IMG/VR virus record: IMGVR_UViG_3300042502_001732
Coordinates: 62,001 to 126,000 of that record
From: a virus
DNA length: 64,000 nucleotides
Reading direction: 5' to 3' (one strand)
Shown here: in pieces, positions 8,511 through 24,199 of the stretch
How the letters are laid out: the number at the start of each line of letters is the position of its first letter
Position numbering within the stretch: position 1 is the stretch's first letter
Notes under the pieces: generated by a model
What the model was told of the DNA's origin: nothing
What the model saw: the letters and a program-made list of their open reading frames with translations, nothing else
The model's database searches: none
Program-made: the position numbers and the translations under genes

Positions 8511-8843
8511 ATGAGTGATAAATGGATTGAAGAATTAAGCTTACTTTATGAATCAGATCCCAGACAAATAACACCACATAGAGCATCTGGAATGGGTCCA
8601 GAAGCATACGATCCTAGAAACTCATGGAGTGGTAAAGTTGGAATTTCTGATGGCACAGCAAGCACTAGAGCGGCTGCTACGCCATATCAACAATCTTTTA
8701 TTGGAGAGATGGAAGAAGATGAAAATAAAATAATGTCTGCTATACAAAAAATAGAAGACCAATTTAATTCTAATTCTGATAAAGACAAAAGCGTTAGATA
8801 TGCATTGGGTCTTCTTAAAAAAGAATTAAAGCGCAAGCTTTAA
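8511..8843 (+). CDS. Hypothetical protein with capsid-tag-like N-terminus
   Basis: 110 residues. The first 15 residues (MSDKWIEELSLLYES) match the tag pattern shared by many late proteins here and contain LYE, a (L/I)xE motif. The rest is polar with a helical C-terminus (IQKIEDQFNSN ... LGLLKKELKRKL). Function unknown; packaging in the head is inferred from the tag. Confidence 0.75.
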   Translation: MSDKWIEELSLLYESDPRQITPHRASGMGPEAYDPRNSWSGKVGISDGTASTRAAATPYQQSFIGEMEEDENKIMSAIQKIEDQFNSNSDKDKSVRYALGLLKKELKRKL

Positions 8844-8848
8844 TAAAT

Positions 8849-10612
8849 TTATCTACTTACTTCTTCCCAATCCATAGAAGCAAACATACCAGAACCATTA
8901 GTGGTATCTGATGCAGCAACCAAAGTTAATTCAAAAGGAGTTTTTGTTAAATTGTTTCGTTCTAATTGAAACTTAAACAAAGCTTCTTTAAGAATATCCA
9001 AATTCGGAGAACCTTGATTAGAAGAATTTAAGAAGCCACTTGCTAAAATTCTTCCCCCCGCATAGCTTGTTCCTGTAATGTTGTATTGAACGGCACTATC
9101 AACTCCAGCATCAACCCAACTTCCCCCTGTTGTGACTCCGCTTGCTCTTACCTGCCAGTTATAGTTTATGCCATTTCCATCCCCAAGAATTGATAAAGCC
9201 GTTAAAATAATAATTGCATCAAGTCTGTCTGGAGTTGTTTTTAATCGAATTGAAATAATTGGATAAAACGTACCAGCTACTGCAAACGTTCTTGGTGCAG
9301 TTATTGGGATAGATGCTGCTTGTTGTAATCCTCTTAATTCATAGCCACCTTCGGATATAACCGTACTACATACTTGCTTCAATTTACTAGGACCTGATGT
9401 AGCTGCTTTATTTTCTATTTCGTATCTTAAAGGTAATGACGCGGTGGTAATATATGTAGAGTCAATTAAGTTAGCGTGATGAAAGTAATGACATGGTACA
9501 AACTGACCATTAATAACAAACCCAGTTCTGACAGTACCTAACCCCAGCCATTCTATATCCATGAATAGGATTTGTGCTTTTGTAATATCAAGCGTGATTC
9601 CTGATGGTCCTGAACCATCAAGCTTATCAACATTCCATCCTGATTGTGGTGTTCTTGTTGAAGTAACAGTACCAGTTACAAGGCTGCGTTCAACCATATA
9701 CAATGAACTATCATCTAGTTCTAAATATATACCGTTTTCAGCTCCATAATAACCAACACGCTGTCTTAGGTTGGTAGTAGAAGGACTAAAAGTAAAGGTA
9801 CTCATTATCTGTAACGATTTACCTGGTTGATAAGCAAACACTTTTGTTGTCTCTCTATATACTTTAGAGCCACTTAATGCATCTACCTTTAACTCTACCA
9901 GTCCTTGATTTTGATTAAACTGAGCAGATGCAGAGGTTGTAGTTGTACCACCTGTGAGAGTAGACCAAAGATTGTTATCGGCATATCTATGGGATGAATC
10001 AAATAAAGTTAATGGAGAAGATATTCTTGTACGACCAAACGCATCAGACGCTAAGTTGTAATTTCCAGAATAGTTAATTAAAGGCGTAACGCTTATAGCA
10101 GTAACTGGATTTGTAATTGTAACTGCTGTAACTGGATTAACTAAAGAAAAAGAACTAACTGGATTGTTAATTGTAACTGCTGTAACTGGATTAACTAGAG
10201 AGAACGAACTAACTGTATTAAGAACCGTAACAGCAGTTATAGGATTACTAACAGTAATAGTACCGCTTATAGGAGTAATGCCTGTTGTTATAACTCGCAC
10301 TGCACCTACTTCAGATCCATCTACAGTAGCTGTACGGACTATTTGCGCATATACATCTGTTCCTGTGGTATGATCAACGATACCAACATTGCCAATATCA
10401 ACATTACTAGCTGATAAAATTAAATTGATATCTGACGCATTAACCAGGTGGGTTAATACTGCGTATTTAGGATATATTGTATTGTTATAACCATCACCGT
10501 AAGTGCCATTTGCAGAAGTTATTGCGGGAAATCTAGAATCACCTACAATTTCTACATATTTACCATAGTCTGCAGTTGCCTTATTGATTACAACATTGCT
10601 ATTAATAGCCAT
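8849..10612 (-). CDS. Tail fibre-like / virion surface protein
   Basis: 587 residues from the ATG at 10612, five bases after a late box; 18 codons upstream are probably untranslated. Residues about 110-180 hold near-identical repeats built on VNPVTAVTI and SSFSLVNPVTAV. After these come DAFGRTRISSPLTLFDSSHR and YQPGKSLQIMSTFTFSPS, blocks I recall from virion proteins of marine and freshwater phages. Mostly beta-rich. Likely a fibre or adhesin. It converges tail to tail with 8511-8843. Confidence 0.65.
   Translation of the reverse strand: MAINSNVVINKATADYGKYVEIVGDSRFPAITSANGTYGDGYNNTIYPKYAVLTHLVNASDINLILSASNVDIGNVGIVDHTTGTDVYAQIVRTATVDGSEVGAVRVITTGITPISGTITVSNPITAVTVLNTVSSFSLVNPVTAVTINNPVSSFSLVNPVTAVTITNPVTAISVTPLINYSGNYNLASDAFGRTRISSPLTLFDSSHRYADNNLWSTLTGGTTTTSASAQFNQNQGLVELKVDALSGSKVYRETTKVFAYQPGKSLQIMSTFTFSPSTTNLRQRVGYYGAENGIYLELDDSSLYMVERSLVTGTVTSTRTPQSGWNVDKLDGSGPSGITLDITKAQILFMDIEWLGLGTVRTGFVINGQFVPCHYFHHANLIDSTYITTASLPLRYEIENKAATSGPSKLKQVCSTVISEGGYELRGLQQAASIPITAPRTFAVAGTFYPIISIRLKTTPDRLDAIIILTALSILGDGNGINYNWQVRASGVTTGGSWVDAGVDSAVQYNITGTSYAGGRILASGFLNSSNQGSPNLDILKEALFKFQLERNNLTKTPFELTLVAASDTTNGSGMFASMDWEEVSR
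10099..10230 (-). repeat. In-frame tandem repeats in fibre gene
   Basis: Imperfect 30-60 base units encoding NPVTAVTI and SSFSLVNPVTAV; for example the 18-base GTTACAGCAGTTACAATT type unit recurs with changes. Such arrays vary in copy number by slippage. Confidence 0.7.
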
Positions 10613-10617
10613 ATTTA

Positions 10618-10624
10618 TATTTAT
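10618..10624 (-). promoter_or_regulatory. Late promoter ATAAATA
   Basis: Reverse-strand late box five bases before the ATG at 10612, arguing for that start. Confidence 0.6.
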
Positions 10625-10748
10625 CAAAAAGTCGTACATCTTACATAATATTGACAAAAATAACAACGGTGTTTAAATATGTGCGACTTTCTGAAAAGAA
10701 ATCACAAGAAAAAGAGGAGCCTTGCTCCCCTCAACATTATAAAAAATT

Positions 10749-11162
10749 ATGAAAAACTTATTATTAATACTATCGTGTAGTATTTTGTTAATAAACAATT
10801 CTGCAAATGCATACACTGAAATTAAAAAATCAAATAATGAAAATTATTTCATGGCTAGAATAACCTTTTACACAGACTGTCCAAGATATGGTAAAAAAAC
10901 AGCCAGTGGAAAAATTGCGAAAGAAGGATATACTGTAGCAGCAGAGAAAAAAATACCATTCGGAACGCTTTATAATATTCCAAGTTTGAAAAATATAATA
11001 AAAACTGATGGGATATTTCAAGTTCAAGATCGAGGATCAGCAGTAGATAAAAGAACCGCTAGTAAAAATAAATATCCAGTTATTGATGTATACGTTTCTT
11101 CACATGAAAAAATAAATATTTTGAAAAAAATAAAAAATAACATAGTTAAAGTTTATTATTAA
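10749..11162 (+). CDS. Secreted 3D / double-psi barrel protein
   Basis: 137 residues. Residues 1-21 are a signal peptide (MKNLLLILSCSILL ... ANA). The mature part has ITFYTDCPRYGKKTASGKIA, VAAEKKIPFGTLYNIP, GIFQVQDRGSAVD and VIDVYVSS, the layout of 3D-domain and RlpA/MltA-type barrels that act on cell-wall glycan. The Asp residues in QDRGSAVD and IDVY fit the family. It may act on peptidoglycan in the periplasm. Its stop overlaps the next ATG (TAATG). Confidence 0.7.
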   Translation: MKNLLLILSCSILLINNSANAYTEIKKSNNENYFMARITFYTDCPRYGKKTASGKIAKEGYTVAAEKKIPFGTLYNIPSLKNIIKTDGIFQVQDRGSAVDKRTASKNKYPVIDVYVSSHEKINILKKIKNNIVKVYY

Positions 11163-11698
11163 TGAAAATTTTAAATAAAACAAAAACCTACCTTATAGGT
11201 CCAATGCAATATGGTGATGGTAGATCATGGAGAGAAGAGATATCTGAATTTTTAAAAACTATCGGAGTTATTGTGTTTGATCCATATAAAAAACCATTTA
11301 TAAATGCACCATCTGAAGATGAAGATACCCATGCAAAAATGTACAAACTTATGAATATAGGCGAATATGATGAAGTTGCTGAACATTTTAAAGCTGTTCG
11401 TTCTTTTGATTTGTCTATGGTAGATAGAGCTGATTTTATCATATGTTATTTAAATCCTAAAGTTCCGACTTATGGAACTGTAGAAGAATTGGTAACAGCA
11501 GTTAGAATGAAACGTCCAGTTTTTGTTGTGATAGAAGGTGGTAAAAAAAATACACCACTGTGGGTTATGGGAATGCTGCCACACAAATATATATACGATT
11601 CATTTGATGAAATAAAACAAGTATTGACAAATATAAATGACGGACTAAAGTCAATAGACAGTGATCGTTGGAGATTATTTGAACAAGAATTAAGATGA
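11162..11698 (+). CDS. Nucleoside 2-deoxyribosyltransferase-like protein
   Basis: 178 residues. YLIGPMQ at 10-16, DLSMVDRADFIICYL and PTYGTVEELVTA match the nucleoside deoxyribosyltransferase / DUF4406 fold (substrate loop, catalytic Glu, nucleotide site). Such enzymes exchange or hydrolyse deoxynucleosides. Coupled to both neighbours by overlapping stop and start codons. The fold is fairly clear, the substrate unknown. Confidence 0.7.
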   Translation: MKILNKTKTYLIGPMQYGDGRSWREEISEFLKTIGVIVFDPYKKPFINAPSEDEDTHAKMYKLMNIGEYDEVAEHFKAVRSFDLSMVDRADFIICYLNPKVPTYGTVEELVTAVRMKRPVFVVIEGGKKNTPLWVMGMLPHKYIYDSFDEIKQVLTNINDGLKSIDSDRWRLFEQELR

Positions 11699-11919
11699 AA
11701 GTGGAAGGTTTAATATCATTAAAACTTACAGACGCTTCTAAGCTAGAAGTGTTTTATCAATTTTTATTTGATAAATTCAATTTTAATAAAAATTATATAA
11801 TTAAGCAAAATAAAATATATCAAATTGAAGAACACAGAGATGAATATTATGATATCTATATTAGAGACGCTGACGAATTAGATTATCACATATATGAAAT
11901 AATAAAAAAAATAAAATGA
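11695..11919 (+). CDS. Hypothetical small acidic protein
   Basis: 74 residues, not recognised. Rich in Tyr, Asp and Lys. It starts with ATGA overlap on the previous gene, so it is translated from the same message as the deoxyribosyltransferase-like protein. Confidence 0.65.
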   Translation: MKVEGLISLKLTDASKLEVFYQFLFDKFNFNKNYIIKQNKIYQIEEHRDEYYDIYIRDADELDYHIYEIIKKIK

Positions 11920-11935
11920 CATTTATTTAAAAAAA

Positions 11936-11942
11936 ATAAATA
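11936..11942 (+). promoter_or_regulatory. Late promoter ATAAATA
   Basis: Late box six bases before the ATG at 11949. Confidence 0.6.
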
Positions 11943-11948
11943 TACTCA

Positions 11949-12788
11949 ATGTCAATAGATGTCGGTTTCACTTTTACGTGTAGGTTAAATGGAAGATTAG
12001 GAAATCAAATGTTTATGATAGCGCATGCATATTCACAGGCGCTAGACCATAATTCCAAATTTATTTCTGCAAAATATGATGTCCCAGCATCTGATTATTT
12101 TGATAATATTTATAGAAATATAGATTTTTCTATAAATTATATTGATGATTTAAAAGAAGATGAGTCCTATGTTAATATAGGAACTACCTTTCATTATACC
12201 CCAATCAAAGTCCCTAAAAATAAAAATATAATTTTTCATGGATATTGTCAAAGTGAAAAATTCTTTATATCTAATAGTTTAAAAATAAAAGAATTATTTT
12301 CAGCAAATGAAGAATTTATAACAGAATATTTTAATAAATATCCATTTTTAAAAGATAACAACACTATTGTTATAAATGTGAGACGAGGAGATTACTTACA
12401 TTATCCAAATCACCATCCAGTTATTTCAAAAGAATATATATACAAATCGTTAGAATATATACCAGATTATAAAAAAAATCCAATTATTATTATAAGTGAT
12501 GATATTGAATGGTGTCAAGAAAACATCAATATTGATAATGCGATATTTATTACTGATATATTACCATGGCAAGCATTGTGGTTAATATCTCTTTGTAAAT
12601 ATTTTATAATTTCAAATAGTAGTTTTTCTTGGTGGGGTGCATTTTTGGGTGAAAAAGAAAACAGTATCGTGGTGTGTCCAGATATTTGGTTCGGTCCAGA
12701 AATAACAGTCAACACTTCTGACATATATAGAAACAATTGGATAAAAATTCCAACTTATCACCAAAATGGTGTATTATATCCGAAATAA
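11949..12788 (+). CDS. Alpha-1,2-fucosyltransferase-like (GT11)
   Basis: 279 residues. GRLGNQMFMIAHAYSQAL near the start, INVRRGDYL in the middle and FIISNSSFSWWGAFLG near the end are the three GT11 motifs. It should move fucose from GDP-fucose to a glycan. It forms a late unit with the GT2 gene that follows. The target could be virion protein or host envelope glycan. Confidence 0.85.
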   Translation: MSIDVGFTFTCRLNGRLGNQMFMIAHAYSQALDHNSKFISAKYDVPASDYFDNIYRNIDFSINYIDDLKEDESYVNIGTTFHYTPIKVPKNKNIIFHGYCQSEKFFISNSLKIKELFSANEEFITEYFNKYPFLKDNNTIVINVRRGDYLHYPNHHPVISKEYIYKSLEYIPDYKKNPIIIISDDIEWCQENINIDNAIFITDILPWQALWLISLCKYFIISNSSFSWWGAFLGEKENSIVVCPDIWFGPEITVNTSDIYRNNWIKIPTYHQNGVLYPK

Positions 12789-12796
12789 AAAATAAA

Positions 12797-13567
12797 ATGA
12801 AAACATTAGTAGTTTGTCCAACTTATGGGAGAGTTCCATATTTAAATCGTATGGTAGCTAGTTTTTTATCACAAACATATGATGATAAACATTTAGTAAT
12901 TATAAATGATGATAAAAATGTAGAAATATGCTGTGATAACAATCAAGTCACTTGTATAAATTTAAATAAAAAAATTCTACTTCCACAAAAAAGAAACATC
13001 GGCATTATGCTAGGATATTACGATCTTATCATGCAATATGACGATGATGATATTTTTTTACCAAACAGAATATCAAATCATGTTCAAAAACACATTGAAA
13101 ATCCAGATATTTGGTATTATTGGAATATGTCATCATATATTATATATGGAGATAAATTTGAAATCGCTGGATGTTCTCCCAATCACAGTTCTTTTTTAAG
13201 AAAGGCGTGGTTTTCTGTTGGTGGATATGCCAACAATGAAAATATCGGAGATGATATGGAATTTTTTTACAAAATACCAAACAATTTTAAAAAGGAAGAA
13301 AATGATCCAACATTAGCTGATTATGTTTACAACTTCGGCGGAGTTAACTATCACGCATCTTATGAAAAAGATATTAGAATAGATGAAATTGCATATAATC
13401 AATTATCTAATATGAATTTAATAGGTAAAAAATATTGGATAGAACCAGATTATGAAGAATATAACAAATTCTTGATATTAGAAAATTTATATAAACAGAA
13501 AAAAGAATCTTTAATTATTAAACATATAGATCAAGGAAAAATCGGTATAGATCATTTAATGATATGA
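12797..13567 (+). CDS. GT2-family glycosyltransferase
   Basis: 256 residues from the ATG at 12797; an upstream in-frame ATG at 12737 lies inside the fucosyltransferase gene. VVCPTYGRVPYLNRMV opens a GT-A fold, MQYDDDDIFLPNRI is the DXD metal site, and NIGDDMEFFYKIP is the acceptor-side acidic motif. Its end overlaps by 16 bases the convergent o-spanin gene. Confidence 0.82.
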   Translation: MKTLVVCPTYGRVPYLNRMVASFLSQTYDDKHLVIINDDKNVEICCDNNQVTCINLNKKILLPQKRNIGIMLGYYDLIMQYDDDDIFLPNRISNHVQKHIENPDIWYYWNMSSYIIYGDKFEIAGCSPNHSSFLRKAWFSVGGYANNENIGDDMEFFYKIPNNFKKEENDPTLADYVYNFGGVNYHASYEKDIRIDEIAYNQLSNMNLIGKKYWIEPDYEEYNKFLILENLYKQKKESLIIKHIDQGKIGIDHLMI

Positions 13568-13800
13568 TAAAACAATTGATTTTCTAATTTTTTAAAACGA
13601 GCATCTGAATGCCACACCTCATCTGTTTGAGGTGTATAAATACCATCTTTTGTTATGATAGATTTACCTTTTTCCAGAGAGAGAATAGAAGGTTGATAAA
13701 TGTTGTATATAGGCTCTTTCTTGAATGAGCCTATCTCGCAAGATGTCAGCCCTATCATTACTATCATTAGTTTTAGAAGATCGCAACTTTTCAATTTCAT
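13552..13800 (-). CDS. o-spanin lipoprotein (lysis cassette 1)
   Basis: 82 residues. A hydrophobic N-terminus ends in the lipobox GLTSC (Cys 21), predicting an outer-membrane lipoprotein. It starts inside the preceding i-spanin gene in another frame, the overlapping Rz/Rz1 design. It should link to the i-spanin across the periplasm and fuse membranes at lysis. Confidence 0.7.
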   Translation of the reverse strand: MKLKSCDLLKLMIVMIGLTSCEIGSFKKEPIYNIYQPSILSLEKGKSIITKDGIYTPQTDEVWHSDARFKKLENQLFYHIIK

Positions 13801-13924
13801 TGATAATTTGTTCTTGGTTGATTCTAGATTTTTGAATCATATCATAATAAAATGCTCTATTCTTTAACTCCAAAAAAGCAGTTAAAGCAGATAGAGCATT
13901 TTTAATTAATCCTATAATATCCAT
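13664..13924 (-). CDS. i-spanin-like protein (lysis cassette 1)
   Basis: 86 residues: hydrophobic N-terminal segment (about 3-18), then a charged coiled-coil-like stretch (QEQIINEIEKLRSS ... RADILRDRLIQERA). TAATG overlap with the holin-like gene. Together with the overlapping lipoprotein gene this fits an i-spanin. The membrane segment is short, so the call rests partly on context and on the parallel cassette at 50 kb. Confidence 0.62.
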   Translation of the reverse strand: MDIIGLIKNALSALTAFLELKNRAFYYDMIQKSRINQEQIINEIEKLRSSKTNDSNDRADILRDRLIQERAYIQHLSTFYSLSGKR

Positions 13925-14112
13925 TATTCGCCTTTATCTTTTGCTTTGCCGATATTAATGGCAGCAAAATCGATAAGAGCGTACAATTTAGCAAGGAATG
14001 TACCTGGAGCTGGTGTTGGTGTAGCTGCAGCAATAGCTGATGCTAACGCTACAACTGCTGTGATTATATTCAATATATCATTACCAGTGACGAGTTCTAA
14101 TATTGTATTCAT
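13924..14112 (-). CDS. Holin-like membrane protein (lysis cassette 1)
   Basis: 62 residues. One long hydrophobic stretch, IITAVVALASAIAAA, then TPTPAPGT and a short tail ending GKAKDKGE. A clear paralogue lies at 50435-50623 with the same core and end. Small size, position at the head of a spanin pair and divergence from an endolysin suggest a holin; not proven. Confidence 0.6.
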   Translation of the reverse strand: MNTILELVTGNDILNIITAVVALASAIAAATPTPAPGTFLAKLYALIDFAAINIGKAKDKGE

Positions 14113-14119
14113 ACACTAG

Positions 14120-14126
14120 TATTTAG
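14120..14126 (-). promoter_or_regulatory. Late promoter CTAAATA (leftward)
   Basis: Reverse-strand late box seven bases before the holin-like ATG at 14112; back to back with the rightward box at 14138. Confidence 0.55.
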
Positions 14127-14137
14127 TTCACTGCCTA

Positions 14138-14144
14138 ATAAATA
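14138..14144 (+). promoter_or_regulatory. Late promoter ATAAATA
   Basis: Late box five bases before the endolysin ATG at 14150. Confidence 0.6.
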
Positions 14145-14149
14145 TTATT

Positions 14150-14785
14150 ATGGAGTTTCCAGGTAAAAAACAAAAAGTAATGAATGTTCAGAAGGCTTTA
14201 GGACTATCAACTGATGGTATTGATGGTCCTAGAACATGGGATGCTATTGAAGAAACTGTTGTAAAGGACAAGCCTCAAACAGTTCCTACTACTCCTACAG
14301 GCAATACATTAGCTGAAAAGTTAGTAGCTCTAGCAAAGAAAGAAGTAGGTGTGGAAGAAGTTAACGGGACCAACTGCGGTCCTAGAGTTAACGAATATAA
14401 ATCAGCAACTTGGTTAGATTCAACGAAATCATGGCCTTGGTGCGCTGCTTTCATTTGCTGGTTGTTTAGAGAAGCAATGAAAGATGGTAAGTATAGCTTC
14501 GAAAGACCCAAGACAGCAGGTGCTTATGATTTTGAAAATTGGTGCAGAGAGCAAGATACACATGTTCTTTTAAAGAAACCTCATAATGGCGATATTAAGC
14601 CTGGAGATATTGTTATCTTTAACTTTTCTCACATTGGATTAGCAATTGGAAATCCAGATTCTGCTGGTTATGTTAAAACAATCGAAGGAAACACTGATGG
14701 CTTTGGATCTCGTGAAGGCGGAGCGGTGTTAGAAAAAAGACGTAAATTGTCATCTATACGTAGTAGAATTAGAGTTGTAATTTAA
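14150..14785 (+). CDS. CHAP-type endolysin with peptidoglycan-binding N-terminus
   Basis: 211 residues. Residues about 8-32 (VQKALGLSTDGIDGPRTW) resemble a peptidoglycan-binding repeat. After a Thr/Pro linker, a CHAP-like hydrolase has NEYKSATWL, WPWCAAFICWLF (catalytic Cys), GDIVIFNFSHIGLAIG (catalytic His) and TIEGNTDGFGSREGG. No signal peptide, so release should need the holin-like protein encoded divergently. Cassette 2 has an unrelated amidase instead. Confidence 0.8.
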   Translation: MEFPGKKQKVMNVQKALGLSTDGIDGPRTWDAIEETVVKDKPQTVPTTPTGNTLAEKLVALAKKEVGVEEVNGTNCGPRVNEYKSATWLDSTKSWPWCAAFICWLFREAMKDGKYSFERPKTAGAYDFENWCREQDTHVLLKKPHNGDIKPGDIVIFNFSHIGLAIGNPDSAGYVKTIEGNTDGFGSREGGAVLEKRRKLSSIRSRIRVVI

Positions 14786-14795
14786 TATCAAATAA

Positions 14796-14802
14796 TTAAA
14801 TA
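14796..14802 (+). promoter_or_regulatory. Late promoter TTAAATA
   Basis: Late box eight bases before the ATG at 14811. Confidence 0.5.
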
Positions 14803-14810
14803 AAAATACT

Positions 14811-15271: not shown

Positions 15272-15882
15272 CGTTTAACTATTGTGTTTTTAATATTGTT
15301 AACCAATAATTCAAATCCTGTTATTTGATTTTTATCAAATTTTCCAGCTTTAGTTCCGATACTTATATAAAAATATTGTTTATCTACCACGCCTATATTG
15401 TACATTATATTTTGTGTAACTCCTAGATGTTCAAAATGATGTTTTAATTGACACTCATTCATTTCTGAAACATCACTAATACAATAACCAGCTCTTATAA
15501 CTTCTAATAAATTTTTAATATAATCTGAATCTATTGAAATATTTTCATATGTTGGTATTTCGTTCAAATTATTTCTATTCCAATCTTTATATATAGCTGA
15601 TGTATAAAATGATTTTCCAACTTGGGGAATCCCCCCTCCATTATGAGCTGCAAAAATAATAGCATGGTCTGCTCCAGCCTTTATTATTTCATATAAGTAT
15701 TCTTGTATATCTATACTATCTTGTAAAAATTCTAACATTTTTAAATTAGAAAAAGGTCTTCTTTCTACAAAAAATTTAATCATAGATGTTGTTGCTTTTA
15801 TTAAAGTAACTAAAGCACCAGAACTGATCAGAGCCATTAATATTAAAAATCCTCCGCTCTGTGTATCAAAAAATTCATTCAT
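15268..15882 (-). CDS. Membrane-anchored protein with GAF-like domain (tentative)
   Basis: 204 residues. One N-terminal membrane helix (about 12-34), then a soluble domain with ADHAIIFAAHNGGGIP, FEHLGVTQNIMYNIG and a C-terminal YFYISIGTKAG. The order suggests a GAF-like sensor fold facing the cytoplasm, but this is a guess from pattern. Late box eleven bases upstream. Confidence 0.6.
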   Translation of the reverse strand: MNEFFDTQSGGFLILMALISSGALVTLIKATTSMIKFFVERRPFSNLKMLEFLQDSIDIQEYLYEIIKAGADHAIIFAAHNGGGIPQVGKSFYTSAIYKDWNRNNLNEIPTYENISIDSDYIKNLLEVIRAGYCISDVSEMNECQLKHHFEHLGVTQNIMYNIGVVDKQYFYISIGTKAGKFDKNQITGFELLVNNIKNTIVKR

Positions 15883-15893
15883 GTTTATTATAT

Positions 15894-15900
15894 TATTTAT
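15894..15900 (-). promoter_or_regulatory. Late promoter ATAAATA (leftward)
   Basis: Reverse-strand late box eleven bases before the ATG at 15882; spacing longer than usual. Confidence 0.4.
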
Positions 15901-15935
15901 AAAAGAAAATTAATTTTTTAAAAAAATTATGAAAG

Positions 15936-15942
15936 ATAAATA
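15936..15942 (+). promoter_or_regulatory. Late promoter ATAAATA
   Basis: Late box five bases before the GTG at 15948; it fixes that start. Confidence 0.6.
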
Positions 15943-15947
15943 ATAAA

Positions 15948-16328
15948 GTGAATAGCAAATATATAGAATTAATTGATAGCGTGTATTCCTCTATTTTAGA
16001 GGAAAAAAACGATAATTCATCTATCGATGAATTTATCAAAATACGATCAAACGGAGCTAAAAAAATTGAAAAACAAGCCAAAGAAAAAGGCGGAGCTTCG
16101 ATATTAACAGCGATTCATTTTAAAGCAAAAGAAATTCCATATGAACATTGCTTAGAAAATTCAGAAGATATAAAATCTATAGAAAAAAAAGCAGATCTTG
16201 TTTTTAATAAACTTAAAAATTGGAAAAATTTATCACAAAGACAATTTCAAGCTTTGATGGGTGAACTTGAAGCTTATGGTGAAATTTATATAAAAATTAA
16301 AAAGCCAAACAGTATAAATTTAAATTAA
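15948..16328 (+). CDS. Hypothetical tagged protein
   Basis: 126 residues from a GTG five bases after a late box. N-terminus MNSKYIELIDSVYSSILEE matches the shared tag and contains LEE. The body has NGAKKIEKQAKEKGGASIL and TAIHFKAKEIPY, a segment I recall from T4-like phages without assigned function. Convergent with 16329. Confidence 0.72.
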   Translation: MNSKYIELIDSVYSSILEEKNDNSSIDEFIKIRSNGAKKIEKQAKEKGGASILTAIHFKAKEIPYEHCLENSEDIKSIEKKADLVFNKLKNWKNLSQRQFQALMGELEAYGEIYIKIKKPNSINLN

Positions 16329-16682
16329 TTATTTTTGTTGTAATCTATACAACAAATGATTGAATTCTGCTTCGATTTCATCTTTGATATTTTTTAAATC
16401 ATCAAATCCTTCAGAGATGGATGATAAATATGAAACGATCTCAGTTTTTAATGATGTGTACGAAGATATCAAATCTCCTTTATATGATTCCACTTTAATT
16501 GTATAATTTGTATTATTATTGGGAATTGTCGTTCTTCCGTAATAAACTTCTACAAACTTATCAAATAATTCATCCAACGTTTCGTATGCAGTTGATAACG
16601 CTTTATGTTCAGCATAACTCTTAGTTTGCCAATGATCAACCTTTAGTTGATTTAAAACCGTGAAAACTGCAATCAAATTCAT
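16329..16682 (-). CDS. DUF5856-like helical protein
   Basis: 117 residues from the ATG at 16682, just after the upstream stop; an ATG at 16715 would overlap that gene by 29 bases. VLNQLKVDHWQTKSYAEHKAL and LDELFDKFVEVYYGR match the DUF5856 family of phage four-helix proteins that look ferritin/Dps-like. Function unknown. Coupled to the DUF5661-like gene. Confidence 0.72.
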   Translation of the reverse strand: MNLIAVFTVLNQLKVDHWQTKSYAEHKALSTAYETLDELFDKFVEVYYGRTTIPNNNTNYTIKVESYKGDLISSYTSLKTEIVSYLSSISEGFDDLKNIKDEIEAEFNHLLYRLQQK

Positions 16683-16686
16683 ATGT

Positions 16687-16965
16687 TTATTTATGAGGTT
16701 TTTTAGCTTTTTCAACTTTATCCAATAATTTGTAATAATCTATTCTCTCAAAAAGATGATGAGATGCTATAGTTCTTGCTTGCTTTTCGTCTAACGGATT
16801 TTCTGGATCTTCCTCATGTTCCATTTCTATTTTCATTCCATCATTCAATGCGGTTTCTACATCTTCTTTAGAAACGCCATGCTTTTTCATTATTTCTTCA
16901 ACAGTTTTTGGCGGCTTCATTCCTTCATAAATTAAACCGATATTGATTGAATCTTTATTAAGCAT
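16687..16965 (-). CDS. DUF5661-like tagged protein
   Basis: 92 residues. The start MLNKDSINIGLIYEG fits the shared tag, with IYE as a possible processing site. The body KHGVSKEDVETALNDGMKIE then EHEEDP and TIASHHLFERIDYYKLLDKVE fits DUF5661. Late box five bases upstream, divergent from the ArdC-like gene. Confidence 0.72.
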   Translation of the reverse strand: MLNKDSINIGLIYEGMKPPKTVEEIMKKHGVSKEDVETALNDGMKIEMEHEEDPENPLDEKQARTIASHHLFERIDYYKLLDKVEKAKKPHK

Positions 16966-16970
16966 TTATA

Positions 16971-16977: not shown

Positions 16978-16985
16978 TAAAAATG

Positions 16986-16992: not shown

Positions 16993-16997
16993 TAAAT

Positions 16998-18239
16998 ATG
17001 AGCTTTTACGAATTTTACAATTCCATCATAAATGAAAATTTAGTTCTCAAAAAAAGACCAATACAATTAGATGATGGTTCAACTGTATACGAATTTATAG
17101 TTGATAGTGATATTGAAAATCCCAGAGATAAAAGCAACGAAACATATAAAAATAAAGATAACATAAAAAAAGCTGGGTTCGTGTGGAATAAAAATATTGG
17201 AAAGTGGACAAGTTCTGAAAAATTTTCTTTAGAAAATTTACAACAAGGAATTGCAAAATATAAAAGAGCCATTTTATCAATAAACAAAGATTTTAATGCC
17301 GTCGGATTTGATGATTATGCTGACGACCTTGAAGAATTTTTAGATCTTGGAATAACTGATAAACTTAAAGAATTCTTCACAGAATTAAAAGAAAAAATTA
17401 AAAATGCAAAAGATTCCCCAGAAGTTAAAGCGTTTTTTGAATTTAGAAAAAATTTCACCAATAGAAGTTTTAATAATCAAATGCTTATATTCATGCAGAA
17501 TAGAAAAGCAACTCATGTAGAAGGCAAAAAAACATGGGAAACGAAATTTGGAAGAAGACTCAAACTTGGAGCAAAATCAATTAAAATTTTTGTTCCTATC
17601 ATATCTAAAGATAAAAAGAATGAAGATGCTCCACAAGCTGATATGAAAGTTGATGAAACTCAACAATTAAAAGGATTTACAATTGGCAATGTATATGATA
17701 TATCAGATACTGTACCAATAGAAGGCAAGGAACATATGTATGTACAAGAACCAAAATGGTACGATGATGCAACCCCAGATGAAAAAACTAGATATCTTTA
17801 TGATGCTCTTGTTAAATTTGCCGAAGAACATAATGTTCAAGTATCTATAAGTGATGAGGGATTAGGCGGAGCTAGAGGAGTCAGCAGAGCAGGATCAATA
17901 CAATTGATGCAAGAAAACATATCAACAATGATTCATGAATTAACTCATGAAATTTTACACCCCGCTGATAAAAGAAAAGAATTATCAAGTGAAATAAAAG
18001 AATTACAAGCGGAAGGTGTAACATATCTAGTATTGAAACATTATGGTCTTCCTACATCACACGCTGAAATATATCTAGCTCTTTGGGAAAAAGATCCAGA
18101 AAATGTAAAACAAAATGAAGAAATAATAAGAGACACTGCTAAAATGTTTATTGAATATATTGACAATGCTACTATGAATTCTTCAGAAGAATCTCCCGTT
18201 CAGGAATCTTATATAAACAGCTTGAAAGCAATGTGGTAA
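16998..18239 (+). CDS. ArdC-like antirestriction protein with capsid tag
   Basis: 413 residues. Residues 1-15 (MSFYEFYNSIINENL) form the shared tag with INE as a possible cleavage site. Residues about 130-200 match the ArdC N-terminal ssDNA-binding domain: FFEFRKNFTNRSFNNQMLIF, MQNRKATHVEGKKTW, LKLGAKSIKIFVPI. The C-terminal part has the zinc-protease motif TMIHELTHEILH and a distal Glu (ELQAEGVTYLV). ArdC protects incoming DNA from restriction. Packaging it in the head would deliver it with the genome, as T4 does with IPI. Confidence 0.8.
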   Translation: MSFYEFYNSIINENLVLKKRPIQLDDGSTVYEFIVDSDIENPRDKSNETYKNKDNIKKAGFVWNKNIGKWTSSEKFSLENLQQGIAKYKRAILSINKDFNAVGFDDYADDLEEFLDLGITDKLKEFFTELKEKIKNAKDSPEVKAFFEFRKNFTNRSFNNQMLIFMQNRKATHVEGKKTWETKFGRRLKLGAKSIKIFVPIISKDKKNEDAPQADMKVDETQQLKGFTIGNVYDISDTVPIEGKEHMYVQEPKWYDDATPDEKTRYLYDALVKFAEEHNVQVSISDEGLGGARGVSRAGSIQLMQENISTMIHELTHEILHPADKRKELSSEIKELQAEGVTYLVLKHYGLPTSHAEIYLALWEKDPENVKQNEEIIRDTAKMFIEYIDNATMNSSEESPVQESYINSLKAMW

Positions 18240-18240
18240 T

Positions 18241-19077
18241 ATGAAAAGCTTTGAAAATTTTTACGAAAACTATACAAACGAGTCCGAATTAAATGAAGGA
18301 TTCAAAGAGAATTTAATAAATTCATTACTGGCATTGTTTAGTATGGGAGCCGCTGTTTATGAAGGAAATTATGTTCTTAATTTCTTAAACAATCAACCAG
18401 CCCCAATGGAACAAAAAATCGATGCTTTAAATCAAGTAAAAGACCAAACAGACAATATAAAGATTAAAAAAGCCGTTGATGATGCCATTCAAAAAATAAA
18501 TCAACCAGCTCAAAAAGTAAAAGAAAACATCACTGGGGAAAAATCTAAAATATTAGATCTCGCTGTAAAACTTACATTGCCAAGTGAAATATTAGGAACC
18601 AATATATATGATAAAGTGAACGATAGTTTTATGAGACCATATCTTGATGACAAAGGATATTGGACGATTGGGGTTGGTCATTTATTAGGTAGCGAAGCTA
18701 AGAAAAATTTTTGGATACAAAATAGAGCAAAGCAAGGAAAATCAGCCACTTTATCAAGACCAGAGGCGCTGGCTCAATTTAAACAAGATCTTGAAAAACA
18801 TCATAATCTAGCACAAAAGAAATTCCAAAAGGAATGGCATAAATTTCCAAATGAACTCAAAGCGGTGTTAGTAGACATATCATTCAGAGGAGATCTTGAG
18901 AAAAAAGGATTAGGTGATTTCGCATTCGTTGAACTTTTAAAACAAGGAAAATATAAACAAGCAGCGAAAGAATATTTGGATCACACTGAATATAAATCAA
19001 GAATGAAAAAGGATAAACCAGACGGTGTTGTGAAAAGAATGAACAGAAACGCTGCTATTATATCAAAAACGACATAA
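18241..19077 (+). CDS. Lysozyme-like (GH24-type) protein with capsid tag
   Basis: 278 residues. Tag MKSFENFYENYTNESELNE, where LNE could be a prohead-protease site, then a hydrophobic segment (about 25-45) and a charged linker. From about 105 a T4-lysozyme-like fold: DSFMRPYLDDKGYWTIGVGH aligns with the Asp and Thr of T4 lysozyme. The catalytic Glu position reads Asn-Asp, so activity is uncertain. The later FPNELKAVLVDISFRGD also fits the family. It may aid DNA entry rather than lysis. Confidence 0.72.
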   Translation: MKSFENFYENYTNESELNEGFKENLINSLLALFSMGAAVYEGNYVLNFLNNQPAPMEQKIDALNQVKDQTDNIKIKKAVDDAIQKINQPAQKVKENITGEKSKILDLAVKLTLPSEILGTNIYDKVNDSFMRPYLDDKGYWTIGVGHLLGSEAKKNFWIQNRAKQGKSATLSRPEALAQFKQDLEKHHNLAQKKFQKEWHKFPNELKAVLVDISFRGDLEKKGLGDFAFVELLKQGKYKQAAKEYLDHTEYKSRMKKDKPDGVVKRMNRNAAIISKTT

Positions 19078-19124
19078 CATTAATTCTATTGACAATGTAT
19101 TTTCATGTGGTAAGTATTATACAT

Positions 19125-19862
19125 ATGAAAACAAAAAACATATTGTTGGCAGTCGCAGCATTTGCTGCATTCACAAGCGTACAAGCTGGTACAGTTGAAC
19201 CTGTAACTGTTACAGCTGAAGAGTCCTCGACACCATCCATTGTTGTTGAAACTGGATATTCTTCTGAAAGCGTGTGGCGCGGTGCTGACCTTGGCAGAGA
19301 CGAAGCAAGTGCTGTTGTAACTACAACCACAGAATTACCAATTGGTGTTGGTCTTGATCTGGTCGCTGGTTATAGCAACGCTGACACTGAAGTAAAAGAC
19401 GAAGAAACCGATCTTTCTGCAGTTTTCTCAAAAGAGATTGCTGATTATCTTGTTTCTTTGAGTTATACTTGGTATTCGCAAGACTTTGCCAAAGATGGTA
19501 GTGGACAAGCGCAAGAAGCTGGTCTTTCGGTTTCGCGTGAAGTTGGACCTGTTGATGTTACATTCACTCAATACCTTGCGATCAAGGGTGATAATAACTC
19601 ATACAGCGAACTAGCAGCAACATACAGTGACGATTTCGGTCTTCCTGTTGTGTTGGATTTCCGTTCTGAACTCGGCTATCTTGCTCAAGAAGGAAAATGC
19701 ACTCATTTTGAAACTAGAATTTCAACCGATATTCCAGTTTTGCAAGAAGTAACAGCAGTTCCGTTTGTTGCATATTCTCTTGGTCTTGATGACTCTGTAG
19801 GTGCGCATTCAGACATGCATAATGTTTTCTTCGGTGGGATCGAGTTTAAGCGCTCGTTCTGA
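19125..19862 (+). CDS. Outer-membrane beta-barrel protein
   Basis: 245 residues from the ATG at 19125. Signal peptide MKTKNILLAVAAFAAFTSVQA, then an acidic linker and alternating strands with the start VVETGYSSESVWRGADLG like the TIGR02001 outer-membrane family. It ends FFGGIEFKRSF, a C-terminal Phe as used by the Bam machinery. Base composition is richer in G and C than the neighbours and it carries its own terminator, suggesting capture from a host. It could block receptors against superinfection. Confidence 0.75.
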   Translation: MKTKNILLAVAAFAAFTSVQAGTVEPVTVTAEESSTPSIVVETGYSSESVWRGADLGRDEASAVVTTTTELPIGVGLDLVAGYSNADTEVKDEETDLSAVFSKEIADYLVSLSYTWYSQDFAKDGSGQAQEAGLSVSREVGPVDVTFTQYLAIKGDNNSYSELAATYSDDFGLPVVLDFRSELGYLAQEGKCTHFETRISTDIPVLQEVTAVPFVAYSLGLDDSVGAHSDMHNVFFGGIEFKRSF

Positions 19863-19895
19863 TTTAGATATTCAAAAACCAAAATAAAAACCAAT

Positions 19896-19928
19896 ACCGT
19901 CTTGTGAGAAATCGCAAGGCGGTTTTTT
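19896..19928 (+). terminator. Terminator after outer-membrane protein gene
   Basis: 9-bp stem ACCGTCTTG / CAAGGCGGT (one G-T pair), 10-base loop and six T. Confidence 0.8.
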
Positions 19929-19950
19929 AATGTAAAAATTTTATTATATA

Positions 19951-19957
19951 TTAAATA
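19951..19957 (+). promoter_or_regulatory. Late promoter TTAAATA
   Basis: Late box six bases before the ATG at 19964. Confidence 0.6.
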
Positions 19958-19963
19958 TTAAAT

Positions 19964-22027
19964 ATGCGCAAAGATTTTTCAGAATTGTCATTTTTATATG
20001 AAAATGTTCTTATAAATGAAATATCTCAAAAATATGTGGATGTTATAAAAAAAGCTGCCAATGACCATGTGTTACCATTTGAAAATGTTTTTAACAATAA
20101 GTTGAGGATTATACTTCCCATCAAGGGAACTGAAACATACAATGCTATTTTAAATGATATTTCAAAAATAAAAGATTTTGATCGTTTCGATCCAGAAAAA
20201 AAAGAGGTCGTTAGAAAAATAAAACTCGATCCAAAATATGGCGGGGGAGAGAAAGAACAAAAAATAAACTTGGGAAGAGCGATCAATTCTTTAAAAATTG
20301 ATCCAGAAACAAAAAAGAAATATTTAAATTGGTTTGCCAATTACGAATCCAACATACCAGAAATGAATGATCTTAAAAGATTTTCTGTGGTTGTTTCAAG
20401 AAGTCCAATTGATGTGTTGAGAATGTCTGATATCAGCGATATAGAATCATGTCATAGTCAAGGCGGTGCGTATTTTCAATGTGCGATTCAAGAAGCTATA
20501 ACAGGCGGGGCTGTGGCTTATGTTGTACACACCAGAGATCTTAAAAAATTATCAGACGATGAGTTTCAAAATGAAGAAATATTCGAAGACAAAGAAAGAA
20601 ACGTCAAAGGAATCGGCGTATGGTCTAGATTAAGAATAAGAAGATACGAAATAGAAGAAAACAACAATGATATCGGGATTCCAGAAGTCAGAATCTATGG
20701 TCGAAAAATACCAGGATTTTATGACACTGTGAAAAACTTTTTAACAAAATCTCAACAATACAGCGTTGATAATCTTTATAAATTATATAAAAATAAACAA
20801 CTTAAAAAAACTGGTGGCTCTTATTCAGATTCCAGCGATAGTCAATTATTCAATAGAATGTACGACACTGATGTTTTTTATGGAAGCATTCGTCACGAAG
20901 ACAATGATGAAAATGCGGGTAGAGAAGCGCAATTCGAAGAAGAATTAGCAGGATTTCAAAACCGTTTCGAGTTTGAACATTGTAATGCGGGTTATAGTAT
21001 TGATGGAGATGATGATTATGTTTATTATACAGCGTGGGGAGCAATCAATATAGATCTTGGAGAATATCAAGTGATTGATGATTTTGTAGAATTTGACAGC
21101 GAGTATGAGATAAGCCAATTAAAAAAATACAACAAAGATTCTCAACACCAATGGGAAAGATCACTGCCATATAATTTTAAAAACAGAAACCAAGAATCCT
21201 CAATAAACACTTATAAAAATTTCCTAACAGATTTTGAACAATACGATAGCACATCTTTCGTAGAAGACTCGTTGGCTTCGATAAGCATAAAAAGAAATTA
21301 CAATGAAAAAACGGGAAATTGGGAAAAAAATCATTCATCAATGTCGCTGGGAATATTATTCAACAACGAAGAAAGCACAGACGACACTGACGAGTATCTC
21401 TCTTTCTTGAGAGAGGTTGACAACATAGATGGAAACTACGAATCAATCAAAAAAGCATTATTAAAAGCTTTATTGAAAAACGGTTTGATAAAATCAGGAC
21501 CAGATATGGAAAAATATACCACCATATCAAAAGAAAAAGAATTTGTAGAAGATATAAAGAACTTTGAATTTGATACGTCAGAAGACGCATTAACAACTGA
21601 TATATTTTTGGGAAGATACACAGAGCTATCAAAAGATGTTGCTTACGCAAACATCAGCATGATATTTGGAGAAGCACTTGAAAAATATCTAGACACGTAT
21701 TACAAATCACCGCAAATCAATACACAGCAAACCACATTTGATAAGTTTTTTGAAAACCACTACAACGAAACGCTTGTTAATAAGTATGGAATAGAAAATA
21801 TCAAATGCAGATACACCACCCAAGCATTCAACACCGAATTATACAACATGAGTTTGGAAATAAAATTCGAAGCATTGAACAGCAAAACCGCGCCAATTAT
21901 CAAATTCCTAAATGATCACTATGATGATATAACCAACATAGCCAAAATGTTTTTCTTAAAACTCGCCAAAATAGAAAACCAGGACACCAAAAGATTACAA
22001 CAGGTGTATGGTAAGTTATTACAATAA
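19964..22027 (+). CDS. Large tagged protein with SCHS motif, function unknown
   Basis: 687 residues. Tag MRKDFSELSFLYENVLINEI (INE possible cleavage). Residues about 140-185 read VVVSRSPIDVLRMSDISDIE, then SCHSQGGAYFQCAIQEA and GGAVAYVV, a Cys/His motif I recall from other large T4-like phages without a known function. The rest is acidic, with repeated Asp/Tyr-rich stretches. Probably packaged in the head. It converges with 22028. Confidence 0.72.
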   Translation: MRKDFSELSFLYENVLINEISQKYVDVIKKAANDHVLPFENVFNNKLRIILPIKGTETYNAILNDISKIKDFDRFDPEKKEVVRKIKLDPKYGGGEKEQKINLGRAINSLKIDPETKKKYLNWFANYESNIPEMNDLKRFSVVVSRSPIDVLRMSDISDIESCHSQGGAYFQCAIQEAITGGAVAYVVHTRDLKKLSDDEFQNEEIFEDKERNVKGIGVWSRLRIRRYEIEENNNDIGIPEVRIYGRKIPGFYDTVKNFLTKSQQYSVDNLYKLYKNKQLKKTGGSYSDSSDSQLFNRMYDTDVFYGSIRHEDNDENAGREAQFEEELAGFQNRFEFEHCNAGYSIDGDDDYVYYTAWGAINIDLGEYQVIDDFVEFDSEYEISQLKKYNKDSQHQWERSLPYNFKNRNQESSINTYKNFLTDFEQYDSTSFVEDSLASISIKRNYNEKTGNWEKNHSSMSLGILFNNEESTDDTDEYLSFLREVDNIDGNYESIKKALLKALLKNGLIKSGPDMEKYTTISKEKEFVEDIKNFEFDTSEDALTTDIFLGRYTELSKDVAYANISMIFGEALEKYLDTYYKSPQINTQQTTFDKFFENHYNETLVNKYGIENIKCRYTTQAFNTELYNMSLEIKFEALNSKTAPIIKFLNDHYDDITNIAKMFFLKLAKIENQDTKRLQQVYGKLLQ

Positions 22028-22438
22028 TCAACCTTCCATAACTTCATCTAAATCATAAAAGCTATTTATAAAATTGATATTGGCTTTTTGGATTGGTGTG
22101 AATCTGTGTGTAACTTCTTTTTCGTAAAATGTTTTGTTCTGCGAAAAAACAATTCGAACCCATCCCAAAGAAAAAAGAGTATCGTATACTCCTTTTTTGG
22201 AAGAAGTCCCAATACTATCTAAAATTTGTTTTCCAACGATTTCATGTTGTCCAACACCACCACGCACCACTGCAAAATTACCATGGCGATCCATCCAAAA
22301 CCCATAAGGTTTGTTCATAGGCAAACGAACAATGCTGTTGTGTATTTTCAAGGTGTCTTGATCATCAAAAGCTTTTGTTTTACTTGCTTCTTCAATCATT
22401 TCAAGATAAATACTGTTTATATCTAAACGATAATTCAT
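22028..22438 (-). CDS. Hypothetical tagged protein
   Basis: 136 residues. N-terminus MNYRLDINSIYLEMIEEAS fits the tag (IEE). The body has PYGFWMDRHGNFAVVRGGVG then QHEI and LFSLGWVRIVF, a compact layout seen in other phage proteins of unknown role. Late box five bases upstream, lying in the 3' end of the next leftward gene. Confidence 0.72.
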   Translation of the reverse strand: MNYRLDINSIYLEMIEEASKTKAFDDQDTLKIHNSIVRLPMNKPYGFWMDRHGNFAVVRGGVGQHEIVGKQILDSIGTSSKKGVYDTLFSLGWVRIVFSQNKTFYEKEVTHRFTPIQKANINFINSFYDLDEVMEG

Positions 22439-22443
22439 AATTT

Positions 22444-22450
22444 TATTTAA
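22444..22450 (-). promoter_or_regulatory. Late promoter TTAAATA (leftward)
   Basis: Reverse-strand late box five bases before the ATG at 22438. Confidence 0.6.
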
Positions 22451-22920
22451 TATAATTCGTTTTGTATAGAAGATAAGTATTCTCCATCCAGAGTTTGGAT
22501 TATTTTGGATTGCACAACAACACCAGGATTGATGATAATCACCGAAAGGTTTTCGTTTCTAATGTCTCCTTCGCCTGTGTTCTTGTAAAACGCTACATCA
22601 TAATCACCCAAACCTTCAACATAATCATAACCGTGATCAGAGCCATCGTCTGGCAACAACTTTGGATACACATCACCCGTTCTAATAATTAGCTCATAAA
22701 GATAATATGTGTCATACTTTCCTTCGTCATTGATCATATAATCAGCGCGAATCAACGCTTGTTGACGAGTACCACAATGAGATCCCGAAACGTAATCTCG
22801 CTTATCACCACGAGCAGAACTACGAAAAACTTTTAAATATTCCACACCTTCAACGTCTTTAAACTTTGTATTTGCCGTTAATTCTTGAGTGTTATAGAAA
22901 GATTCCAAAAAGCTTTTCAT
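22447..22920 (-). CDS. Probable ADP-ribosyltransferase-like protein with capsid tag
   Basis: 157 residues from the ATG at 22920, five bases after a late box; an upstream ATG at 22995 lies inside the divergent gene. Tag MKSFLESFYNTQELTAN. The body follows the order of ART-PolyVal-type domains: VFRSSARGD, GSHCGTRQQALIRAD, YLYELIIRTGDVYPKLLPDD, DYDVAFYKNTGEGD and LSVIIINPGVVVQSKI. A DNA-injected ART would parallel T4 Alt. The fold assignment is an inference from motif order. Confidence 0.5.
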   Translation of the reverse strand: MKSFLESFYNTQELTANTKFKDVEGVEYLKVFRSSARGDKRDYVSGSHCGTRQQALIRADYMINDEGKYDTYYLYELIIRTGDVYPKLLPDDGSDHGYDYVEGLGDYDVAFYKNTGEGDIRNENLSVIIINPGVVVQSKIIQTLDGEYLSSIQNELY

Positions 22921-22925
22921 AGGAT

Positions 22926-22932
22926 TATTTAA
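22926..22932 (-). promoter_or_regulatory. Late promoter TTAAATA (leftward)
   Basis: Reverse-strand late box five bases before the ATG at 22920. Confidence 0.6.
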
Positions 22933-22936
22933 TTGA

Positions 22937-22943
22937 CTAAATA
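22937..22943 (+). promoter_or_regulatory. Late promoter CTAAATA
   Basis: Late box nine bases before the ATG at 22953, divergent from the box at 22926. Confidence 0.5.
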
Positions 22944-22952
22944 TTTTAGATA

Positions 22953-23348
22953 ATGAAAAACAGAGATCAACTATTATTGACAAATATATATACAAGTTCT
23001 GTTTTGTCAGAAAGTATAACAGCAGCTGTTAAAAAAATTTCAATTGAAAACCTTTTACCAGATAAAGATAACATGGAAGTGGCTGTTGATTCTCTAAGAA
23101 AAGGCATGCGCAGTTCTGATAATAATCCTATATCGGTTTATAAAAATAAAAATAAATATATAGTAGCAGACGGACATCATCGCTTGTTGCAATCCATAAT
23201 CAACGGCGATGAATCCATCAACGCAAAAATCCTTCACTCAGACACACCAGTATCCACAACAGGAACAATCAAATTAGACTTATTCGACGGCGATTACTAT
23301 GGACTGGATTCATCTCTAGAAAACGGATGGTTAATAAAAAGACTATGA
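22953..23348 (+). CDS. ParB-like nuclease-fold protein with capsid tag
   Basis: 131 residues. Tag MKNRDQLLLTNIYTSSVLSE (LSE possible cleavage). NPISVYKNKNKYIVADGHHR followed by LLQSIINGDESINAKIL is the ParB/Srx nuclease fold (GHHR). Such domains bind or cut DNA or hydrolyse CTP. Its stop overlaps the next ATG (ATGA). Confidence 0.75.
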   Translation: MKNRDQLLLTNIYTSSVLSESITAAVKKISIENLLPDKDNMEVAVDSLRKGMRSSDNNPISVYKNKNKYIVADGHHRLLQSIINGDESINAKILHSDTPVSTTGTIKLDLFDGDYYGLDSSLENGWLIKRL

Positions 23349-24199
23349 AAAACGAAGACAGATATTTTTTAGAAGAACTCTATACAGAAATGGCATTGTC
23401 CAATCTACAAACGATTGGCAAATGGCAAGACGATAAAAATAGACACGGATATGACAAAGCATCAGTAGGAATACTATCATCTCCCGCAGGATTAAAAAAA
23501 TTAGAAGACACATTCAACAAAATAGGAGGATGGGACTTTAATCTATATTTCGTAAAATTACCAAACGCATGGAAACAAAGCGAAATGGGACTGGTTGATA
23601 TCAACAACCTACCACAATTAATCAAAGTCGAAGCGGGAAAAGATTTCCCCATGCCAACAGACAGCGAAATAACAATCATATTCACAAACAACGCAGCGGC
23701 AGAAAAAGTACCATTAACACCATGGACAATAGCACACAGAATAGGACATTCTTTCGCAGCAACATTCAGAAGAGGAAACGATAAATCTATACAACACTAT
23801 GATAACGAAATATCAAATATATTAAAAAAATTATTAATGTGTTATAATATAAAACCAGAAGGAAATCTGTTATACTCCCAAGCTTATTATATAAGAGATC
23901 TATTTCAAAAAATAGGAAAGTTCCGTAGTGCTAGAATGGGTAAATTAAATCGCCCAGCAGAATTCTATCACGAAGCGTTCTCGTATTGGTTATTACACGA
24001 TGGAGAACTAAACTTCAATGATCCCCCACAATCACTGATAGACAGCAACAAACAAGCATGGGGAACACCAGTGGGTATGAATTATAGATTACAAGATGCA
24101 GAAACAGCAGAAGACTTATTATATCAATTAAAATATGAATTAGAAGAGAAATTCAATTATATGATAGGAAGACACATCGGCACAACGTCGATTATGTGA
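23345..24199 (+). CDS. Metallopeptidase-like tagged protein
   Basis: 284 residues from the ATG at 23345, coupled by ATGA to the ParB-like gene; an ATG at 23327 is less likely. Tag MKNEDRYFLEELYTEMALSN. TPWTIAHRIGHSFAATF resembles a zinc-peptidase helix but reads HRIGH, so the catalytic Glu of HExxH is replaced. A later AEFYHEAFSYWLLHDG supplies His/Glu. It could be an inactive or divergent protease. Last gene before the tandem repeats. Confidence 0.62.
   Translation: MKNEDRYFLEELYTEMALSNLQTIGKWQDDKNRHGYDKASVGILSSPAGLKKLEDTFNKIGGWDFNLYFVKLPNAWKQSEMGLVDINNLPQLIKVEAGKDFPMPTDSEITIIFTNNAAAEKVPLTPWTIAHRIGHSFAATFRRGNDKSIQHYDNEISNILKKLLMCYNIKPEGNLLYSQAYYIRDLFQKIGKFRSARMGKLNRPAEFYHEAFSYWLLHDGELNFNDPPQSLIDSNKQAWGTPVGMNYRLQDAETAEDLLYQLKYELEEKFNYMIGRHIGTTSIM

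Follow-up and report, generated by a model that had tools for sequence, protein, structure and literature searches.

The 64,000-nucleotide stretch of DNA analysed here (the window) comprises bases 62001-126000 of the 143,932-base virus record IMGVR_UViG_3300042502_001732, and its source is an uncultured T4-like phage. A preliminary description of the window proposed that eleven otherwise unrelated proteins share a short N-terminal pattern that sends them into the phage head. All eleven open reading frames exist with N-termini as described, and our analysis supports this interpretation overall: the shared N-termini are very probably capsid-targeting sequences (CTSs) of the T4 type, such that the cargo behind them is packed into the head, cleaved by gp21 and injected with the DNA. 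We refer to the proteins by the window position of their start codon, with a minus sign for the reverse strand.

Used literally as a detector, the described pattern ([FLIV]Y, with the Y at residues 7-13) occurred 19 times in the genome compared with 11.7 expected (P = 0.03), an enrichment too weak for this purpose, and it was dropped. Because the literal rule was weak, we built two position-specific profiles, F and Y, solely from the N-termini of relatives. The F dialect reads M-x-x-F-x-x-F-F/Y-x-E, with the spacing of the T4 CTS, and the Y dialect reads D/K…L-x-x-[LI]-Y-E. Among the 150 proteins of the record, the five best Y profile scores belong, in order, to 8511, 19964, 16965-, 22438- and 22953, and seven proteins pass a score of 7 compared with 0.87 expected (P = 3e-5). 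The F profile adds 16998 and 18241. Two more proteins are borderline by profile, 22920- (p = 0.0021) and 23345 (p = 0.015); their orthologues in about 20 contigs are clearly F- and Y-tagged, respectively. Nine of the eleven are well supported as members of a tag family, and 15948 and 36518 are weak. The profile search over the phage and its relatives, which the preliminary description had suggested, was positive and was then extended. Nine gp23-related uncultured records were covered over nearly their whole length, making ten phages together with this one, and in these ten phages a short tag at the extreme N-terminus was found on 83 proteins in 56 body clusters, compared with 6.6 expected; this count is partly circular in the training phages, which lessens its weight in favour of a tag. 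The tagged genes are clustered at P < 0.01 in five of the ten phages, including this one. The set of eleven is incomplete, since outside the window the same phage encodes L003:5491 (MSRTDATKLENIYLEM) and, at L003:8174, a retropepsin-like protein with an F tag.

An unsupervised search for N-terminal motifs recovered M-x-x-F-x-x-[FY]-[FY]-x-E in relatives G002, G003 and G007. In G005 it recovered M-N-x-D-x-x-L-I-F-E-A-Y in six unrelated proteins, with a log-likelihood of 80.7 compared with 46-50 for shuffled sequences and 49.9 for interior segments. No clear tag motif emerged from this search in G004, G006 or G008. A first expectation-maximization run, in which the motif fraction was left free, was overfitted and was discarded.

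The experimentally established CTS proteins of T4 are ipI, ipII and ipIII. The F profile, which was never trained on T4, placed ipII, ipIII and ipI at ranks 2-4 among 250 annotated T4 proteins, and F-tag matches were absent from the 64 genes of lambda. Rank 1, above the known internal proteins, went to gp61.1 (MKTFKEFIKED; NC_000866 18966-19130, locus L243), which, judging from its N-terminus, may be an overlooked T4 head protein and a candidate member of the tag family. In the T4 CTS, residues 4 and 7 serve in targeting (IPIII) and residues 8 and 10 in processing, with gp21 cutting at L/I-x-E (PMC9026906). Only the F dialect has aromatics at both 4 and 7 (18241 and relatives), with 22920- instead having F4 and F8; Y tags have their aromatic residue at positions 10-13, and so are not in the T4 register.

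The Y dialect is tied to the F tags solely through swaps on homologous bodies. The body of 22438-, Y-tagged here, is F-tagged in its homologue G004:132373, the DUF5661 domain has F tags in G003, G004, G006 and G010 but follows a Y tag in 16965-, and the homologue of 8511 at G010:48426 bears a different tag. A single G003 gene (19425-20489; L106:426-1490) encodes an F tag, DUF5661, the junction ...YLSE/MALSN and the 23345 body. In other contigs a Y tag stands directly before this body, with the E-M junction unchanged throughout. From its single tag, the G003 fusion would yield two cargo proteins. Read in this way, the tags are exchangeable modules; where a body has homologues elsewhere, the alignment sets in well past the tag.

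We collapsed homologues to 56 body clusters before counting sites and promoters. The triplet [LI]xE was enriched 1.7-1.8-fold over the 20 residues behind the tag (P = 0.002-0.01), and in the bodies it fell to 0.71-fold (P = 6e-4); the triplets [LI]xD, [LI]xQ, [LI]xN, [LI]xS and [FVM]xE were flat in both regions, and [LI]xK was 1.3-fold up in bodies. The preliminary description had reported (L/I)xE in at least eight of the eleven proteins, and direct reading finds it in nine, within about 22 residues of the start. The site in 23345 is likely YTE. Of 81 gp23 sequences, 57 have ENQExWC-[IL]-x-E where maturation is expected to occur, the remainder mostly having F, M or V, which suggests that the protease here may accept further hydrophobic residues. 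We infer the exact cut site of each protein from its sequence, and mark it with a slash in the tags given below.

T4-type late promoters had been ascribed to most of the eleven genes, and TAAATA indeed lies 11-15 nt before the start in nine of them; 18241 and 23345 each come second, immediately after a tagged gene (16998 and 22953, respectively). TAAATA lies within 30 nt before the start in 66% of tagged but only 20% of untagged clusters (P = 7e-13). In 254 genes of the ten T4-like phages (for example 36518, 22920- and 16965-; L002-L163), it stands exactly at -11 relative to the start codon, and five of these genes have Shine-Dalgarno-like sites, compared with 242 of 1303 genes without TAAATA nearby. 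T4 late promoters are farther off, at -15 to -45, and come with Shine-Dalgarno-like sites. If the promoters here are laid out as in T4, these genes would be transcribed from the AUG onwards, and they look like a leaderless late regulon.

The window opens within the gene for the major capsid protein gp23, of which it holds the 3′ part (1..581, +; PF07068, E = 1e-85), and a head module of gp21, gp22-like and gp23 genes adjoins the window on the left; its prohead protease is an S77 enzyme of 221 aa (PF03420, E = 3e-31). The late sigma factor, of gp55 type, is encoded at L003:3086-3541 (phrog_234, E = 2e-25). The tag families, their modular exchange, the late promoters, the site enrichment and this gp21/gp23/gp55 machinery were computed here; by analogy with T4 (PMC9026906, PMC5694885), we suggest how the core would be bound and the cargo cleaved, packaged and injected, and the functions given for individual proteins are putative. 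Late in infection, unrelated effectors would be made, mostly from individual late promoters, each bearing an N-terminal tag of 10-20 residues. The conserved aromatic/aliphatic face of the tag would bind the gp22-type scaffold core during prohead formation, and the gp21-type S77 protease would cut where the tag ends, behind (L/I)xE or a closely similar triplet. The processed protein would remain in the head beside the DNA and enter the next host by injection, where antirestriction, ADP-ribosylating, muralytic and other activities would act in the first minutes.

Several observations weigh against this CTS reading. The tags used for training were selected by eye among regular-expression hits once the window tags were known, which makes the P values optimistic. 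By profile, two of the eleven proteins are weak (36518, p = 0.017; 15948, p = 0.08), 22920- and 36518 have no clean (L/I)xE, and the (L/I)xE enrichment is modest. Applied to T4, the Y profile ranks Alt no higher than ninth of 229 open reading frames, so that the Y dialect is linked to the CTS by other evidence, and this dialect has no experimentally proven counterpart. Lastly, the 291-aa protein between gp21 and gp23 is taken as the gp22-like scaffold from its position and a sub-threshold profile match (T4_CASP, E = 0.07).

It is also conceivable, although unlikely, that the shared N-termini are a handle by which late proteins at work in the same infected cell bind a partner other than the core, for instance the tail, the membrane or an assembly factor of the host. 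A tag that resembles a short amphipathic helix would suit such a handle, as would the want of a tested relative for the Y dialect and the similar starts of some relatives' core-module proteins (cluster 53), which are not obvious cargo. However, a handle of this kind would not readily account for T4 internal proteins topping the F profile, for gp21-type sites being enriched behind the tag and depleted in the bodies, or for the same bodies swapping Y and F tags. We consider it very improbable that the likeness reflects chance or composition. Many small phage proteins do start with charged and then hydrophobic residues, the literal pattern is barely enriched, and 15948 and 36518 are not significant alone; however, the profiles, the motifs compared with shuffled and interior controls, the negative result in lambda and the late-promoter association all argue against chance, and for nine of the eleven proteins they largely refute it. 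Less credible still is a DNA cassette of late promoter and start region, spread by recombination and encoding a peptide without a role: the promoter-start distance is fixed and tagged genes cluster in several phages, but codon choice within the tags matches genome averages, which favours selection acting on the peptide over selection for a DNA cassette, the same promoter precedes many untagged late genes (375/428), and in ten 22920- homologues M1, F4, F8, E13 and L14 are the sole invariant tag residues, those between them varying.

Six of the window proteins are Y-tagged. Protein 8511 (8511..8843, +; 110 aa; MSDKWIEELSLLYE/S) ranks first of 150 and has TAAATA at -15. Protein 19964 (19964..22027, +; 687 aa; MRKDFSELSFLYE/NVLINE/I) ranks second, with TAAATA at -12. 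The third, 16965- (16687..16965, -; MLNKDSINIGLIYE/G), is a DUF5661 protein (PF18905, E = 1.5e-8) whose domain begins at residue 24. Protein 22438- (22028..22438, -; 136 aa; MNYRLDINSIYLEMIEE/A) ranks fourth, with TAAATA at -11, and the ParB-like 22953 (22953..23348, +; MKNRDQLLLTNIYTSSVLSE/S; ParB-like phrogs) ranks fifth, with TAAATA at -15. Protein 23345 (23345..24199, +; 284 aa; MKNEDRYFLEELYTE/MAL) has homologues with clear Y tags in which E15 and M16 are invariant; a fold search with its mediocre model gave no match. Possible Y tags are present on 15948 (15948..16328, +; 126 aa; MNSKYIELIDSVYSSILEE/K), which requires a GTG start and has LEE and TAAATA at -11, and on 36518 (36518..36823, +; 101 aa; MTTKDQYNLANLYKE; TAAATA at -11), an isolated late gene amid reverse-strand genes.

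Three window proteins are F-tagged. Protein 16998 (16998..18239, +; MSFYEFYNSIINE/N; p = 1.3e-4) is antirestriction/metallopeptidase-like (phrog_7245, E = 1e-5), with phage homologues aligning to this part only from about residue 140 on; TAAATA is at -11, and this start is preferred because the alternative at 16983 overlaps its promoter. Protein 18241 (18241..19077, +; MKSFENFYENYTNESELNE/G; p = 9e-4) is GH24 lysozyme-like (Phage_lysozyme, E = 1e-7 at 132-267), and its body aligns with T4 lysozyme from residue 131. Its activity is uncertain because, on inspection of the sequence, the residue at the position of T4 E11 is not Glu. The third, 22920- (22447..22920, -; MKSFLESFYNTQE/L; TAAATA at -11), is ADP-ribosyltransferase (ART)-like: ten homologues are known from the contigs, none was found in cultured phages, and its AlphaFold2 model has a predicted local distance difference test score of 87 with the tag disordered. 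The best PDB matches of this model are ADP-ribosyltransferase folds, at E values of 0.02-0.1 that are individually not significant. The 32-bp intergenic region at 22921..22952 holds two overlapping divergent late promoters, for 22920- and 22953. Thus, of the body domains named in the preliminary description, antirestriction, lysozyme and ParB are borne out by sequence and ART has weak fold support; for the peptidase assignment of 23345, an HRIGH stretch is the sole support. The retropepsin-like protein (PF05618, RimB/RloA-like) spans L003:8174-8620, and a PF05618 protein is F-tagged also in eight of the nine relatives (G002-G007, G009 and G010), with none found in G008.

The phage belongs to an uncultured clade. 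Its gp23 is about 34% identical to those of the best-scoring phage records, which are cyanophages, and 57-100% identical to those in at least 80 uncultured contigs; no close DNA match to cultured phages was found. Contigs G001 and G021 are near-identical to the window until about 41,541 and then diverge, and beyond this point the record (the rest of the window and L006) runs on about 95-97% identical to another T4-like phage, G013. The join at about 41.5 kb is probably an assembly mis-join or a mosaic, and a mis-join is likely because the switch falls inside a duplicated gene. All eleven proteins, including the isolated 36518, lie on the side backed by G001 and G021, and no further tags were seen in the true continuation of G001 past the join. 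A third tag, [DN][PS]LxxAAxxIL followed by LTE, LQE, LSE or LNE at about residues 20-30, occurs on five or six late proteins (L006 1074-3099 and 8204-8629; G013 15376-16962; G016). This motif has no interior match in 336,698 residues, and no homologues of the DPL-tagged protein were found among cultured phages. Taken at one stage as part of this phage, the DPL family (126.8-134.4 kb) was reassigned to the other T4-like phage after contig comparison. The doubtful right part of the record also encodes an F-tagged GNAT acetyltransferase-like protein (MIISFKQYFIRES; L006:8841-9209, -). Two related signal-peptide proteins (ETGYSS..VWRGADLG) lie one in each part of the record, at window 19125-19862 and L006:3245-3985 (-). 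A 53-bp tandem repeat of 3.8 copies at window 24204-24403 marks the border between an AT-rich late and a more GC-rich early region, and is present in other contigs that span this border.

To our knowledge, the injected non-DNA content is known for only a few model tailed phages. We lean towards the view that a large uncultured T4-like clade loads at least ten enzymes per virion by means of a zip code readable from sequence, which has at least two interchangeable dialects and, in a neighbouring lineage, a third one (DPLxxAAxxIL…LxE), including a cleavable two-cargo polyprotein. Such a code would make the whole injected proteome of these phages predictable, and, if we have read the tags correctly, injected effectors could be listed straight from environmental genomes. 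Candidate enzymes of counter-defence would be among them (antirestriction metallopeptidase-like, ART-like, retropepsin-like and DUF5661 proteins, besides many unassigned ones), and the tags would be portable signals for loading proteins into phage heads.

The CTS mechanism itself is already known from T4; new here are how many cargo proteins each phage has and how large they are, the existence of a Y dialect, the swapping of tags, a cleavable fusion of two cargo proteins and the occurrence of all this throughout an uncultured clade. A literature search of limited coverage found no description of multi-cargo CTSs in environmental T4-like phages. The T4 internal proteins IPI, IPII and IPIII (CTS MKTYQEFIAEA) likewise have an N-terminal tag of 10-19 residues with aromatics at 4 and 7, an (L/I)xE site cut by an S77 protease, and unrelated small cargo, with an antirestriction role for IPI. 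IPI inhibits GmrSD, an in vivo precedent for injected counter-defence, and host-made IPIII without its CTS restores growth of an ipIII-deleted phage (PMC9391042). Whereas T4 has three internal proteins, the phages studied here have 9-13 cargo genes each, encoding larger enzymes, together with a second (Y) dialect and cargo islands with individual late promoters. T4 Alt is a head-packaged ADP-ribosyltransferase with a short processed N-terminus, which makes the ART analogy for 22920- apt; however, the two have no sequence homology, and Alt is also processed C-terminally. The inner-body and ejection proteins of phiKZ and SPN3US are similarly a multi-protein cargo cut after glutamate by a gp21-related protease, but their propeptides often exceed 100 residues, the cleavage motif differs and there is no common short tag (PMC5694885). 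In P1, the N-terminal 10-30 residues of DarB are enough to load a reporter and an antirestriction protein into the head (PMC9024508), although the Dar proteins have no consensus in common and there is no T4-type core.

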